From assembly GCF_008035925.1 (NCBI RefSeq), contig NZ_CP036264.1:5516402-5580401 (forward strand): DNA of 64,000 nt, in the 5' to 3' direction. Below the pieces are notes generated by a model. That model was given only the letters and a program-made list of their open reading frames with translations, did no database searches and was not told the origin of the DNA. Below are positions 16,599 to 53,848 of this stretch, in pieces. Positions within the stretch are counted from its first letter, which is position 1. Each line of letters starts with the position of its first letter. Origin of the DNA: Stieleria maiorica. GTDB lineage: Bacteria; Planctomycetota; Planctomycetia; Pirellulales; Pirellulaceae. Position numbers and translations under genes: made by a program.

Positions 16599-16663
16599 AC
16601 GTAGCTACGTTCGACGCGAGCGTGGAACACACCGTGGATCCACCTTCTGGCGAAGGTAGCTAC
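16599..16663. repeat. REP family A pair
   Basis: Two units of the GTAGCTAC repeat face each other: ACGTAGCTACGTTCGACGCG onward at 16599-16625 and CCACCTTCTGGCGAAGGTAG plus CTAC at 16640-16663. The second unit is the same sequence that borders the RAYT remnant at 42187. The palindromic core is CACCTTC-TGGC-GAAGGTG. Confidence 0.7.
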
Positions 16664-18716: not shown

Positions 18717-18740
18717 CCACCTTCTGGCGAAGGTGGCCAC
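18717..18740. repeat. REP family A unit
   Basis: CCACCTTCTGGCGAAGGTGG followed by CCAC. It is a perfect palindromic variant of the unit at 16640, 42187 and 53822, here with GGCCAC in place of AGCTAC. Confidence 0.65.
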
Positions 18741-39996: not shown

Positions 39997-41448
39997 TCAG
40001 TTCCCCACTGTGTTCTTTGCGCACAGGCGTTCGACGAACGTTTCCGCTTCCGGCGTCAACTTGGCGATCCGGATCGTTGTCAGCTGTTTTAATTCTGCCA
40101 GTGGTTGAACATCATCAAGCGTCACCTGGTTGCGATTTCGAACGACCAGAAACGACAATCGCTCCAACTTGGCGATCTCGCGAAACGTCGCCTTGGTCGG
40201 ATAGACCCGACCCTGCAGATCCAACGAACGCAGTGAAAGACCGTCGGTAAACCGTATCGGTGTCGGCACTTTGTTATACAGCGTTAACTCCTGTAGCCGA
40301 TTCATCCGTGCGATGTACTGCCAAACGAACAGATGATTCCGAACCAGCAACTCGATCGGCGGGTTCATCGATGCGACAACTTCTAAGTCGTGTTCAAGAT
40401 GCTCCTGGACATTAAGATCCAGTTCTCTCATTCCCAAACTCACCCAGGAACGTAGCAGACCTGCGTTTAACCGTGGCGACGCAATCGACAATCGGTACCG
40501 CCAAAACGCGTCCCCCCAATAGACAAACTCGACGCGTGTGTCGAACAGCCCCACCTTCCTCAGCCCCGGCCGTAACCAACCGGTGATTCCTGCCAGCGTG
40601 ACGTCGGGGGTGCTTGTTTCGTTTCGGTTGAAGATGTCGATCCGGCCGAAGTTTCGGTAGTCGATCAGATGCAACCGACGGTCATCGATCGTGCAGCTTT
40701 GAAGATCAAGTTCTCGCGCCCGAACCGTATTGATCGCACGGCACGCGTCATCGGTCAGTTCACAATCACGCAACAGCAATTTGTCGACGCGAGACGTGTC
40801 CGTGCGACAAAACAGTTGAATCTCCTCGGCGTCGAAATCCCACAGAAAACACGACCCGACCGGTTGAAGGTGTTCGATCGACGCGAGTTGACGCATCACG
40901 TCGCCGGTCATGCGAGATGACTTTTGGTTGTAATATTCAGGCGAAAACACCAGTCGCTGCAGCTGCGGCAACTCTCCCAGCCGGCCGACCTTTGCCGGGG
41001 CGATTCGTGTGTCGTGGATGTCCAACGCCTCGAGTGATTGACAGTCCAACAAATGGTCGATCGCGCCGCTTGTCAGGTGGTGATTGCCCCACAACGACAT
41101 TCGTTTCAGCTGCTTGCACTTAGCCAATTCGGCGATGTCGTCGGCTGCGATCGAGGTGCGATCGAGGTAGAGTCGCTGCAGTGATTTCAGGTGTTCGATG
41201 CCGTCAAGGCCACCACGCCTGAGTCGACTGTGAGAAAGATTGACCTGCGTCGGCGTCGCAAAAAAATGATCTGTCCGCCGATGAAAAGTGTCCAGGACAG
41301 ATGAGTGATAATGCACCTTCCCGCCGAGCGATTCAAAACGTTGGACGATCTCGCGAATCCGCGTCTGTCGCTGGTAACCAAGGATCCCGATCGCGGTCAC
41401 GGCCGCCAGCAGCAAAAGCGTTCGAATCGAAAATCGAAGACGTTTCAT
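39997..41448 (-). CDS. Membrane-anchored leucine-rich-repeat-like protein
   Basis: A 483-residue protein starting at the ATG at 41448. Upstream in-frame sequence lies in a tandem repeat and is not protein-like. The N-terminus MKRLRFSIRTLLLLAAVTAIGILGY is a signal anchor with the FSIRTLL phrase common in planctomycete membrane proteins. The rest shows irregular leucine-rich repeats (LKSLQRLYLDRTSIAADDIAEL, CKQLKRMSLWGNHHLTSGAIDHL, LDIHDTRIAPAKVGRL, ELDLQSCTIDD, LRSLDLQGRV). The likely role is protein-protein contact at the membrane face; the partner is unknown. Confidence 0.75.
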   Translation of the reverse strand: MKRLRFSIRTLLLLAAVTAIGILGYQRQTRIREIVQRFESLGGKVHYHSSVLDTFHRRTDHFFATPTQVNLSHSRLRRGGLDGIEHLKSLQRLYLDRTSIAADDIAELAKCKQLKRMSLWGNHHLTSGAIDHLLDCQSLEALDIHDTRIAPAKVGRLGELPQLQRLVFSPEYYNQKSSRMTGDVMRQLASIEHLQPVGSCFLWDFDAEEIQLFCRTDTSRVDKLLLRDCELTDDACRAINTVRARELDLQSCTIDDRRLHLIDYRNFGRIDIFNRNETSTPDVTLAGITGWLRPGLRKVGLFDTRVEFVYWGDAFWRYRLSIASPRLNAGLLRSWVSLGMRELDLNVQEHLEHDLEVVASMNPPIELLVRNHLFVWQYIARMNRLQELTLYNKVPTPIRFTDGLSLRSLDLQGRVYPTKATFREIAKLERLSFLVVRNRNQVTLDDVQPLAELKQLTTIRIAKLTPEAETFVERLCAKNTVGN

Positions 41449-41468: not shown

Positions 41469-41596
41469 CGTAGCTACCGTCGTCAGACGGTGGTCCCCAG
41501 CACATCCACGCTCCGGCAAGCGTAGCTACTGTCGCCAGACGGTGGTCCCCAGCACATCCACGCTCCGGCAAACGTAGTTACCGTCGCCAGACGATG
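41469..41596. repeat. 52-base tandem REP array
   Basis: Two complete 52-base units (41469-41520 and 41521-41572) and a partial third (41573-41596). Each starts CGTAGCTAC and contains GTCGCCAGACGGTGG, a palindromic core related to the family A repeat. The rest of the unit is GTCCCCAGCACATCCACGCT plus CCGGCAA. The array ends three bases before the RAYT stop at 41600-41602. Confidence 0.8.
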
Positions 41597-41599
41597 CGG

Positions 41600-42190
41600 C
41601 TACGATTCCCGCACAACCTCATTCGCTGCCCGGAACAATCCATGCTTTTGAAGAAAAGAGTATGCCCGCCAAAATCGACTCCAATAATCGTCTTCCCAGA
41701 TCGTCAACTCAGGATACCCAGGCACCAAGCACCCTGTGTATTTGTAATCGCGAAAACAATCTACAGGTACCAATCCGGCGCGCTCTGGGTTTCGAGCGAT
41801 CTAATTGACTAAATCCCACAACGCAAACTCCTTTCGCTCGTCGTCTCGGAGCACACGGTCATGTGGTTGGTGTTGCAGTTGAAATCCGATTTTGCCAAGC
41901 GCTGAATTCATGTGCTTTCGGAAGTACTTCATCGCCTTCAACTGGTCTGACGCCGCATCGATGCCAATCCACAAAGCATGTAAGTGGTCTGACATCAGGC
42001 AGTAGATCGGGCAGACAAGTCCGTATCGAAACATGGCGTGTGTTAAAAGCTCCCGAAATTTGTAGAGGAAGATGGGACGCAGCCAGCCAGTCGCGCGGTC
42101 CTGGATCGTCATCGTCCAATGCACAGAGGCGTCGCCCTGATAGCACTCAGGCGAGAGACGGGGCAGGTGCTTGTTGTTGCGGGCATCCAC
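41600..42190 (-). pseudogene. REP-associated tyrosine transposase (RAYT), interrupted by amber stop
   Basis: IS200/Y1-like transposase of 196 codons. The N-terminal part (42190 to 41804) contains CPIYCLMSDHLHALWIG with the His-x-His pair of the Y1 superfamily, and a helix with a Tyr (KAMKYFRKHMNSALG). A single in-frame TAG lies at 41803-41801. Reading on gives IARNPERAGLVPVDCF, YKYTGCLVPGYPEL, DYWSRFWRAYSFLQKHGL and a stop at 41600. NPxRAGLV is the hallmark of RAYTs, so the stop interrupts one ancestral gene, probably at a Tyr codon before IARNP. REP units in opposite orientations flank it (41469-41596 and 42187-42213). The GTG start at 42190 touches the repeat. Confidence 0.85.
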
Positions 42191-42213
42191 CTTCTGGCGA
42201 AGGTAGCTACGTT
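42187..42213. repeat. REP family A unit bordering the RAYT
   Basis: CCACCTTCTGGCGAAGGTAG followed by CTACGTT. It is inverted relative to the array at 41469-41596, so the two sides of the transposase remnant form an inverted REP pair. Identical or near-identical units occur at 16640 and 53822. Confidence 0.8.
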
Positions 42214-42225
42214 AAGCGGCCCCCG

Positions 42226-45200
42226 CTACGCCGGGACCGGCACGGCCGGCTCGTCGCTTTGATACTCTCCGATCTCGTCTTCCGATTCGGCAACCAAGCG
42301 GCCGCCGGCACTCCAGTACAACGAATAGGTGACCGGAACCAGGTACAACACAACAACGGTTGCAAACAACTCGCCAAAAGCGATGCTGGTCGCCATCGGG
42401 ATCAAAATCTGGGCCTGAATCGACGACTCCAACAGGATCGGCACCAACCCACCGATCGTCGTGATCGTGGTCAACAAGACCGGCCGGAACCGCCTGGCCC
42501 CCGATTCCGTGAGCGCTTGTCCGATCGGCATCCCGCCGCGAACCCGGGAATTGATAAAGTCGATCAACACGATCGAGTCATTCACGACGATCCCGGTCAG
42601 CGCGATGATCCCGTAAAAACTGAACAAGGTCAGCGGCAACCCCATCATCAAGTGCCCGACCACCGCACCGAGCGCCCCGAACGGGATGATCAACATCACC
42701 AACAACGGCTGAACGGACGACTTAAATTCGATCGCCAACAGGATGTACATGGCAAACAAAGCGACGCCGAACCCGCTGAATAAACTGCCCATCGACTCGG
42801 CGCGACGTTCCTGCTGCCCCTCCCAACGCACTCTCAGCTCCGGATACTTCGCCAACAATCCCGGCAAGAACTCCGCTTGCAGATCCGCAACGATCTCTTC
42901 AGCGTTCCCGGTTTCTTCGTCCAGATTGCTCGACACCGTGATCGATCGGGCTTGATCGATGCGATTGATTTCCGAGTAGGCGCGGACGACATCGATTTCG
43001 GCCAGTTCGGTGATCGGCCGTTCGATCCCGTCACTCAATCGGACCCGGACTTCATCAAAATTGGCCAGCAACCGCCGGTCGTCACGCGGGTAGGTGACCA
43101 TGATCTTCACTTCGTGGCGTCCGCGTTGCACCCGCATGACTTCTTCACCGTAGTACGCCGCCCGCACGGTTTCGGCCAGGTCGGCCGTCCGCACGCCCAT
43201 CGCGAACGCTTCGGGTTTGATCCGGAAACGATACTCCCATTTCCCGGGCACCGAGTCGTCCTTGATGTCATAAACACCGGGGTACTTGGCCAAACGTTCC
43301 TTGCACTCTTCGACGGCGGTTTCCAGTTTGTCCACGCTGCGGGCCGGACCGAGCAACTTGAATTCGATCGGTGTCCCTCCGGGGCCGAAGGACCGCGTGC
43401 CCAACGTCAATTCCTCCGTGCCGACGATCGTCCCGACCTCTTCACGCCACTGGGCGACGATGGCCCGGCTGTGCACGCCGCGACTTTCCGCATTGACCAA
43501 TTCGACTTCGACACTGCCCTTGTGCCCTCCGCCGCCGGAGGGCATCGGGGATCCACCGGGGCCGCCGCCTGAAACCGCAGCGCCGACGACGCGGTAGGAC
43601 GTCTTGGCAATCGGCTGACCACGTTTATCGTAGCGATCGGCGATCCGCCAAAACGCGTCTTCCACCTGCTTGGTTGCCGCGACCGTCACGCTTTCCGGCG
43701 TCCCGTCGGGAAACACCACGGTCGCGCTCAGCGTATTGCCATCGACCCGAGGAAAGAAATTGAACTGAATGATTCCGCTGCGGTACAGACCGCCGGTCAA
43801 GATCAACGCGGCGAAACAGAGGGCGACGGCGATCGAACGGTTGCCGAGCGACCAGCGCAGCGTCGGACCATAGACACGATCGATGTAACGATCCAACAGC
43901 CACGTCGCGCCCCGATTCAACTTTTGGGCGACCAGCAGCAATGGCCGAAACACGTACAGCACGACGTTAAAAAATCGAAACACGATGCTGTCTTCGTGTG
44001 CCAAGTGACAGGGCAAGATCGTGATGCACTCGAACAGCGAGACCATCAGGATGGCGATGATCGCGGCCGGCATCACCGCAGTGAACTTGCCCATGGTTCC
44101 ACTGACAAACAACAGCGGCGCGAACGCGACCACGGTCGTCAAAACAGCCGTCGTCACCGACGGAATCACCTCCACCGTCCCGTCGATCGCAGCTCGCAAA
44201 TGGGGCTTTCCCATCTGCCGATGCGCGAACACGTTCTCTCCGACGACGATCGCGTCGTCGACCACGATGCCCAGCGCCATGACAAACGCAAACATCGAAA
44301 TCAGGTTCAACGTCTGGCCGGTCAAATACAAAAAGATGCCCGCGGCGAGGATGGAGAACGGGATTCCCAACGCGACCCAAAACGCCAATTTCGGATCCAG
44401 GAACAACAGCAACAGTGTGAACACGATCACCAGCCCCTGAGCGCCATTGTTGAGCAACAGGTCCAAGCGCCCCCGGACCTCGACCGATTCGTCGCTCCAG
44501 GTCATCAGCTGGTAACCCGGCGGCAATTCGGCATTCGCGACGTAGTCTTTGACCGCGTCGATCATCACGAACAAGTCTTCCGACGTGCTGCGCTCGACCG
44601 AAAGTGCCAGCGCGGGTTTACCGTTGATCACATTGATCGCCGTGGCGTCGGTGAACTCATCGCGGACCGTGCCGAGGTCGGCGACCGTCAGAACCGCGCC
44701 GCTGGGCTCGGTGACCAAAGGCAATTCGGCCAACTCGTCGCCGTTGGTCCGTCGATTATTTCCCCGCAACAACACCTCTTGGGATTGGCTGCGGATCGAT
44801 CCGGCAGGCAATTCGCGGTTTTCTCGGCGAATGATCTCGGCGGCCTGCCGTAGCGTCAGCCCGTGGGCCCGCAGCGTTTCCTCGGGAATCTCGATGTCGA
44901 TCTGGTAATCACGCGCGGCCAGAAAGTCGACTTGCGACACCGAATCGATCGCCAGCAAGTCGTCGCGGATGCGTTCGGCGACCTCGCGCAGGTCCAATTG
45001 TGCTTGCGAGGACAGTGTGTCGTCGGCGTTCCGCGGGGCCGTTTCGGGGGCCAGCACGCCGACACGGATCGAAGGGCGTCGGTTGGTGACCAACGTGACC
45101 ACGGGGTCTTCGGCTTCGAGCGGAAAGCTGGGGATTCGATCTACGCCCGAACGAACTTCGTCCAAGACGCGATCGGGCGAACGAGCCCCGGGGATCAATT

Positions 45201-45486
45201 CCATCAAAACGGTGCAAGAACCCTCCATCGCCACCGTCGTGACCTTCTTGATACCTTCGATCGAGCGGACCGCTTCCTCGACCTTCTGACCGATCCCCTG
45301 TTCAGCCTCCTGAGGGGCCGCACCGGGATAGGGCACGGTGACCGTGATCCGGTCGAGATCGAATTCGGGGAATGATTCCCGGTGCATCGCCCTCAGACAG
45401 AACCAACCGACGATCATGATCGCAACCATGCACAGGTTCAGTGCGGCGCGATTGTGGATCGATGTGTTGACGATCGCCTTCATCAT
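42226..45486 (-). CDS. RND efflux permease
   Basis: Inner-membrane proton-driven exporter of 1086 residues, AcrB/CzcA-like superfamily. The N-terminal TM helix (MVAIMIVGWFCLRAM) is followed by FPEFDLDRITVTVPYPGAAPQE, close to the usual 'FPEI' porter start. TM4 carries MALGIVVDDAIVVGENV, with the paired Asp of the proton relay. The second half repeats the pattern with TGIVVNDSIVLIDFIN. Sequence alone does not tell drug from metal export; the Asp-Asp relay and the mixed features favour the broad HAE-type group. Its ATG overlaps the adaptor stop (ATGA), so both are cotranscribed. No outer-membrane TolC gene is adjacent. Confidence 0.93.
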   Translation of the reverse strand: MMKAIVNTSIHNRAALNLCMVAIMIVGWFCLRAMHRESFPEFDLDRITVTVPYPGAAPQEAEQGIGQKVEEAVRSIEGIKKVTTVAMEGSCTVLMELIPGARSPDRVLDEVRSGVDRIPSFPLEAEDPVVTLVTNRRPSIRVGVLAPETAPRNADDTLSSQAQLDLREVAERIRDDLLAIDSVSQVDFLAARDYQIDIEIPEETLRAHGLTLRQAAEIIRRENRELPAGSIRSQSQEVLLRGNNRRTNGDELAELPLVTEPSGAVLTVADLGTVRDEFTDATAINVINGKPALALSVERSTSEDLFVMIDAVKDYVANAELPPGYQLMTWSDESVEVRGRLDLLLNNGAQGLVIVFTLLLLFLDPKLAFWVALGIPFSILAAGIFLYLTGQTLNLISMFAFVMALGIVVDDAIVVGENVFAHRQMGKPHLRAAIDGTVEVIPSVTTAVLTTVVAFAPLLFVSGTMGKFTAVMPAAIIAILMVSLFECITILPCHLAHEDSIVFRFFNVVLYVFRPLLLVAQKLNRGATWLLDRYIDRVYGPTLRWSLGNRSIAVALCFAALILTGGLYRSGIIQFNFFPRVDGNTLSATVVFPDGTPESVTVAATKQVEDAFWRIADRYDKRGQPIAKTSYRVVGAAVSGGGPGGSPMPSGGGGHKGSVEVELVNAESRGVHSRAIVAQWREEVGTIVGTEELTLGTRSFGPGGTPIEFKLLGPARSVDKLETAVEECKERLAKYPGVYDIKDDSVPGKWEYRFRIKPEAFAMGVRTADLAETVRAAYYGEEVMRVQRGRHEVKIMVTYPRDDRRLLANFDEVRVRLSDGIERPITELAEIDVVRAYSEINRIDQARSITVSSNLDEETGNAEEIVADLQAEFLPGLLAKYPELRVRWEGQQERRAESMGSLFSGFGVALFAMYILLAIEFKSSVQPLLVMLIIPFGALGAVVGHLMMGLPLTLFSFYGIIALTGIVVNDSIVLIDFINSRVRGGMPIGQALTESGARRFRPVLLTTITTIGGLVPILLESSIQAQILIPMATSIAFGELFATVVVLYLVPVTYSLYWSAGGRLVAESEDEIGEYQSDEPAVPVPA

Positions 45487-51243: not shown

Positions 51244-51455
51244 CAGATCGATCTGCTCGACGTAGCTACCGTCGCCAGACGGTGGGCGATCACGCAATGG
51301 GACCAATAGGACACATACGACGTATAGGTCCCATGCGTCCTATCGGTCCCATTCCCCACCAGTACTCCCTGACCCGACGGTCACAACCGCAGTTCCCCCA
51401 TCATTCTGCCTCCCCATCGTTTTGCCCCCATCGTCTTGCCCCCATCATCACGCCC
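51244..51455. repeat. Gap with REP family A and CATCGTTTTGCC units
   Basis: A family A unit (CGTAGCTACCGTCGCCAGAC plus GGTGGG) is at 51260-51285. An imperfect inverted word pair (GGGACCAATAGGAC / GTCCTATCGGTCCC) is at about 51299-51350. Four CCCCATCNTTNTGC-type units start at 51395, and the last reach the stop of the SPFH gene. Confidence 0.6.
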
Positions 51456-53821: not shown

Positions 53822-53848
53822 CCACCTTCTGGCGAAGGTAGCTACGTT
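53822..53848. repeat. REP family A unit
   Basis: CCACCTTCTGGCGAAGGTAG followed by CTACGTT, identical to the unit at 42187-42213 beside the RAYT remnant. Confidence 0.75.

Follow-up and report, generated by a model that had tools for sequence, protein, structure and literature searches.

The RAYT locus and its REP units

The locus lies in a 64-kb stretch of the Stieleria maiorica genome (9.89 Mb, single contig), called the window below, and was compared with Rhodopirellula sp. JC639, the nearest named relative found. On the minus strand, a reading frame for a RAYT is bordered by REP units and lies between an RND efflux pump gene and an ORF that we take, from its sequence, to be leucine-rich-repeat-like (Table 1). 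The initial annotation described this frame as a complete RAYT killed by one amber codon. The 196 codons, the single internal TAG, the HLH motif, and an NPERAGLV sequence are all present, and the amber codon is real, but the frame is not otherwise complete. Relative to JC639, it lacks 38 bp containing the native ATG and leader, and serine has replaced an invariant proline, so that death by one codon is too simple a description. The terminal stop of the frame is TAG as well.

Table 1. Features of the locus and dispersed REP copies, in window positions
Feature	Position	Strand	Remarks
RAYT (Y1/HUH tyrosine transposase) pseudogene	41600..42190	minus	196 codons, read through one TAG
In-frame TAG, residue 130	41801..41803	minus	Tyr column in 19/20 relatives (YIARNPER motif)
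HLH (HUH) motif	41978..41986	minus	within MSDHLHALW
Junction of 38-bp loss	42179..42180	minus	38 bp with native ATG and leader present in JC639
5' REP	42187..42210	minus, same as gene	CTTC/GAAG core, GTAG head
3' array, 128 bp, period 52	41470..41597	plus	CGTC/GACG plus units, degenerate minus units
3' array REPs	41470-41493(+), 41506-41529(-), 41522-41545(+), 41558-41581(-), 41574-41597(+)		
RND efflux pump (ACR_tran), upstream neighbour	42226..45486	minus	stop 15 bp before 5' REP
Leucine-rich-repeat-like ORF, downstream neighbour	39997..41448	minus	starts just after array; also in JC639
Dispersed REP copy	16640..16663	minus	
Dispersed REP copy	18717..18740	minus	2 mismatches
Dispersed REP copy	51262..51285	plus	
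Dispersed REP copy	53822..53845	minus	

The REP, GTAGCTACnnTCGCCAGAnnGTGG, is 24 nt long, with a GTAG head and, in the DNA fold, an 8-bp stem, which carries one T.G adjacent to its base, and a GCCA loop. Three main stem cores occur, related by paired changes: CTTC/GAAG, GCTC/GAGC, and CGTC/GACG. The single 5' REP was correctly described at the outset as inverted relative to the 3' side, and its core differs from that of the plus-strand array units. The 52-base tandem array reported at the 3' edge exists with that period; its extent is 128 bp, and it holds three plus and two degenerate inverted REPs. It consists of two tandem inverted REP pairs that overlap by an 8-bp palindrome, GTAGCTAC, followed by a third REP, and the period is 52 because neighboring 60-bp inverted pairs share this self-complementary GTAGCTAC. 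JC639 has a single REP on the 3' side, and the 3' cluster thus differs by two 52-bp units. Recombination or slippage in one of the two lineages would suffice for this difference, and the RAYT would not be needed. Inverted REPs stand on either side of the RAYT in both Stieleria and JC639, which upholds the proposed REP-RAYT-inverted REP layout, a REPtron.

GTAG-headed hairpin repeats are common around relatives of this RAYT. A strict script found them flanking 17/23 clade loci, on both sides at 13/23, and in 24/1500 control windows; it scores one side only for Stieleria and JC639, because the other REP is either cut by the gene edge or carries an extra mismatch. Six clade loci had no flanking repeat by this script; at L026, L027, L028, L036, and L037 a bulged GTAG hairpin could be recognized by eye, and the strict script found no GTAG hairpin at L044. 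Rfam gave no match at gathering score in the window.

Family assignment, relatives, and lesions of the RAYT

Neither half of the RAYT frame matched a Pfam family. When the frame was read through with the stop as X, it matched the NCBIfam model REP_Tyr_transpos (NF047646) with an E value of 3e-7 at 30 bits, below the cut-off of 80; over all NCBIfam comparisons the protein scored 28 to 30 bits. A profile built from 20 relatives matched E. coli TnpA-REP (4er8) with an E value of 1e-4, its HUH and YIxxNP motifs lining up with those of the E. coli protein, and homology to known RAYTs was accepted on these matches. In the profile alignment, DHLH of the pseudogene, its HUH motif, aligns with EHMH of 4er8, and the TAG column falls in register with YIYINP of the E. 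coli protein. The region after the TAG aligned as a homolog of RAYT C-termini, so that the lack of homology named as grounds for rejecting the initial annotation was not seen. The TAG column, which that annotation proposed to inspect in relatives, holds tyrosine in 19/20 of them and aspartate in one (L037). Since the Stieleria copy lacks the YIxxNP tyrosine, it was filed as a RAYT pseudogene and not as a RAYT. According to excerpts of the family literature, this tyrosine is the nucleophile (PMC2817692, PMC6006769), and by analogy the residue lost to the TAG is the putative catalytic nucleophile.

A protein search over 98 genomes returned matches in 20 (17/84 among good-quality genomes). The intact orthologue that the initial annotation called for was found in JC639 (L017/L040), at the syntenic site and with 95% amino acid identity. 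Besides the Stieleria copy, 18 strong clade matches were listed, two of which (L023 and L025) carry TGA; L043 also has an internal stop. With the distant L044 left out, internal stops occur in 3/21 clade relatives, indicating that RAYT losses recur. The alignment and tree omit L025 and L043, on account of their internal stops. The aspartate-bearing L037 (G004) has an open RAYT frame and is nearly identical to the tyrosine-bearing L026; it is probably another inactivated copy.

The Stieleria genome has a second clade member, L014, which is intact, 53% identical, and carries GTAGCGGAA repeats. Elsewhere in the genome, two further RAYT-like genes, L011 and L012 (G000:C1:8850563 and 1537677) lie within arrays of other palindromic repeats. 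At L172 (G000:C1:9135577-9142284), a tRNA array of 34 genes on one strand spans ~6.7 kb, in addition to the normal dispersed set; it covers 18 amino acids, with Tyr and Met absent, and is perhaps on a mobile element.

The Stieleria frame now opens within the 5' REP. A REP-derived GTG (42190-42188) stands in register with the lost start, eight codons before an L-x-R-L motif, as does the ATG of JC639; in 21/21 relatives a potential start codon (19 ATG, 2 GTG) lies 4 to 10 codons before this motif. Translation might be possible from the REP-derived GTG, and loss of initiation is therefore not certain. The serine lies two residues before the HUH motif, at a position that holds proline in 20/20 relatives.

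To JC639, the RAYT shows a dS of 0.157 and a dN of 0.020 over 573 compared sites. There are 7 nonsynonymous and 9 synonymous differences before the TAG (ratio 0.20) and 2 and 9, respectively, after it (dN/dS 0.06), counts that are small and that join both lineages. The low ratio indicates that the shared history was mostly under constraint and hence, together with the dS over the gene, that the RAYT was probably lost recently. The suggestion that it is recently dead is supported by the intact same-site orthologue and by the ratio after the TAG. A stop is one step away in 70/194 codons of the JC639 RAYT, so its occurrence on the catalytic codon amounts to a modest coincidence and carries no signal. 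As a separate observation, the dS to JC639 is 0.16 for the RAYT, 0.42 and 0.45 for its neighbors, and 0.24 for the next gene up; local recombination is a possible cause of the lower RAYT value.

REP populations and the RAYTs that accompany them

The Stieleria genome contains 441 REP sites at ≤3 mismatches (1 for a reversed control pattern), 397 at ≤2 mismatches, and 209 exact; JC639 contains 502 at ≤2 mismatches and 293 exact. Against the control, the Stieleria number greatly exceeds chance expectation. Over 464 kb, 28/31 sites at ≤2 mismatches lay outside greedily called ORFs; 81% of random positions fell inside. The other three are units of the 3' array that the ORF finder absorbed into an over-long neighboring ORF. 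These elements qualify as GTAG REPs by their head sequence and short hairpin, their many copies, their extragenic position, and their compensatory stem variants. Inverted pairs are a repeated unit, as in REPINs: 26/37 sampled own-genome loci show one (some being the same pair seen twice), and there are 43 exact pairs in Stieleria, 63 in JC639, and 81 in G041, a genome of another genus. All 80 of the pairs read (25, 5, and 50; of 187), at loci including L206, L209, L212, L215, and L218, join unlike stems, one of which is always GCTC. The likely exception is the inexact pair at L050, where a damaged CGTC-type unit is joined to another unit of that type. In folding calculations, artificial same-stem pairs reached -30 to -34 kcal/mol versus -18 for the natural pair. 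A preference for heterodimers has already been published, and excerpts of that report suggest that it may protect against the clearance of hairpins (PMC3733652). Tandem pairs sharing 8 bp also occur in G041 (n = 2; 2719269/2719324 and 3965980/3966033).

The proportion of exact sites differs little between Stieleria (209/397) and JC639 (293/502), and no conclusion was drawn from the difference. Decay of the REPs after the death of the RAYT was considered and is not shown by these data, exactness being hardly lower in Stieleria than in JC639. In a syntenic stretch (~150 kb aligned), 10 REP clusters are common to both genomes, 3 are found in Stieleria only, and 2 are found in JC639 only, numbers that are too few for comparing insertion rates since the split. 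These counts cover the 13/23 Stieleria clusters with both flanks mapped, where 8 were scored as shared by script and 2 added (5570223, in reverse direction, and 5441960, by eye), and 12/13 mapped JC639 clusters, where the script again gave 8 and 2 were added (79908, by pairwise alignment, and 214620, by eye).

Within the genus, high REP numbers go with one RAYT subclade. Of the 14 genomes compared in this genus, three contain a RAYT of the GTAGCYAC subclade, and their REPs at ≤2 mismatches number 397, 414, and 502; the other eleven, which include G008 at 85% completeness, have 0 to 18. The same REP type flanks the four nearest members: the Stieleria RAYT, that of JC639, L018 (G007), and L041, the last two at 63% identity. 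At L042 it lies at least 176 bp downstream, next to a repeat of a different type, and at the remaining 18/23 clade loci no REP of the Stieleria type was found. In a tree of 21 rows, with REP type labels set by eye, the four carriers of the Stieleria-type REP group together with support of 89/80 (below the starred level), the three GTAGCGGAA carriers with 92/87, and the four GTAGTGGACGAGG carriers with 98/96; the GTAGTGGAT type is scattered over neighboring branches.

Another RAYT of the same genome was considered as the true partner of these REPs and rejected, as no such REP was present at the scanned loci (L009-L012, L016, L014, L078, L088, L098, L198-L201, L230, and L237). A rescan of 14 own-genome loci with the stem core left free also gave no match. 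The scan covered 9/11 own-genome RAYT/Y1 matches, the Stieleria RAYT included, and did not extend to those at 5129210 and 7374039, each of which belongs to a set of five weak matches of similar strength. In two scans of RAYT/Y1 loci over all genomes, the REP was present within the scanned stretch at 0/30 and 0/17. A further 41 loci yielded look-alike REPs at two, both in G041. One, L264, has a single site with 3 mismatches more than 1 kb from the match. At the other, L246 (1501-2333, Y1_Tnp), two GTAGCCACGGGCGTCAGCCCGTGG sites lie within ~500 bp downstream, in a tandem block with other palindromes; this GTAG hairpin has the same frame as the REP and another stem core. L246 is a possible partner of the G041 REPs.

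In other genera, the REP occurs without a subclade RAYT: 726 sites in G041, 243 in G026, 197 in G036, 71 in G050, and 56 in G056, the last two being draft assemblies. G041 is an 8.2-Mb single contig in which 600 of the 726 sites are exact; a search there found no RAYT of the clade and one weak profile match (E value of 4e-4) to a distant RAYT. None of the scanned RAYT/Y1 loci of these five genomes is flanked by the same REP. REP number is therefore not simply dependent on this enzyme.

A probable REPtron and the fate of its transposase

These data make it highly probable that the locus is a REPtron whose transposase was recently pseudogenized and whose REPs persist. TnpA-REP nicks REP hairpins with the tyrosine of YIxxNP. 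The intact subclade RAYT most likely recognized GTAG-headed 24-nt hairpins, and, by analogy, nicking with that tyrosine would have spread inverted REP pairs through the genome. The Stieleria lineage would then have lost the 38 bp of leader and start, acquired a stop at the catalytic tyrosine, and changed the invariant proline beside the HUH motif, no order being implied. The predicted product is a 129-amino-acid fragment that, lacking the nucleophile and the C-terminus, should be inactive.

Other explanations were weighed against this one. The counts of exact sites in Stieleria and JC639, together with the 600/726 in G041, suggest a reading in which REP pairs are kept up in planctomycetes that lack a cognate RAYT, either by a different enzyme that works on REPs not linked to it or by host selection. 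We consider it unlikely, although it merits some weight; in G041 the enzyme would perhaps be the Y1_Tnp L246. An otherwise working gene in which the TAG arose through an error of sequencing or assembly is very unlikely. A single-base event in one assembly could be such an error, but the 38-bp loss and the proline-to-serine change are independent damage, and the error would have had to strike the catalytic column, 1 of the 70 JC639 codons that are one step away from a stop.

RAYTs bind single-stranded REPs, and the HUH half of the frame is open and has a start codon in register, so a fragment initiated at the REP-derived GTG might have been kept as a noncleaving REP binder, domesticated or dominant negative. 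This proposal is highly improbable given that the proline is changed, that folding is doubtful once the segment with the tyrosine and conserved columns of the C-terminus are gone, and that no cut at this place occurs among the 18 other clade matches, two of which have TGA elsewhere. We give equally little credence to a chance juxtaposition in which the flanking REPs belong to another mobilizer. G041, G036, and G050 do carry the REPs without a clade RAYT, and L246 adjoins an array whose GTAG hairpin is related but has another core; however, the four closest subclade members all have REPs of one family beside them, and a scan of 14 other own-genome loci gave no such REP, even with the core left free. 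Least probable of all is the suggestion of the initial annotation that the TAG is suppressed and some full-length RAYT still made, for although the ratio after the TAG is low and the frame is open to its normal end, a recent stop predicts the low ratio equally well, the frame ends in TAG as well, its native leader is gone and its invariant proline changed, and no CUA-anticodon tRNA, which would serve as an amber suppressor, was found among the 69 tRNA matches typed with ARAGORN (150/258 candidates scored; a very odd tRNA could escape).

As a REPtron with a recently lost transposase, the locus resembles known systems in most respects. Excerpts of PMC2817692 describe RAYTs with inverted GTAG REPs on their flanks, as well as dimorphic REPs and adjacent BIMEs. 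Like E. coli yafM/TnpA-REP and the REPtrons of Stenotrophomonas and Pseudomonas, as portrayed in portions of PMC2817692 and PMC3733652, the planctomycete system has an HUH motif, YIxxNP, inverted GTAG REPs to either side, dimers that combine two REP types, an adjacent BIME-like array, and hundreds of dispersed extragenic copies. Unlike them, it belongs to a clade far from the curated models (30 versus 80 bits), and the Stieleria copy is without the tyrosine codon and native start. For Pseudomonas and Stenotrophomonas, excerpts of PMC3686654 report RAYTs with nonsense mutations and REPs that are abundant although no cognate RAYT is present. The Stieleria case shares with these the nonsense mutation and the still abundant REPs and differs from what those excerpts contain in its phylum, in the stop on the catalytic codon, and in the 38-bp loss at the start. 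GTAG repeats in Planctomycetes, R. baltica included, with 24 families, appear in sections of PMC3733652, and these share the GTAG head, the short stem-loop, and dimers of two types. In E. coli, genomes with the RAYT hold more REPINs than those without, according to an excerpt of PMC8049555. A search combining Rhodopirellula with repetitive extragenic palindromic sequences returned no open-licence PMC paper, and excerpts of PMC3390384, PMC3116915, and PMC11588811 contain nothing on the Stieleria RAYT locus.

Recent RAYT pseudogenes and REPs without a RAYT are thus already known, and as such the case is ordinary. The comparison shows RAYT subclades matched to REP types in a planctomycete clade that scores below the curated RAYT threshold. 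Stieleria and JC639 also offer a clean natural comparison, with a dead and an intact RAYT at one site and ~400 versus ~500 REPs, which bears on whether REPs decay once the transposase is gone. The abundance of these REPs in other genera that lack a RAYT of this type poses the same question of persistence.
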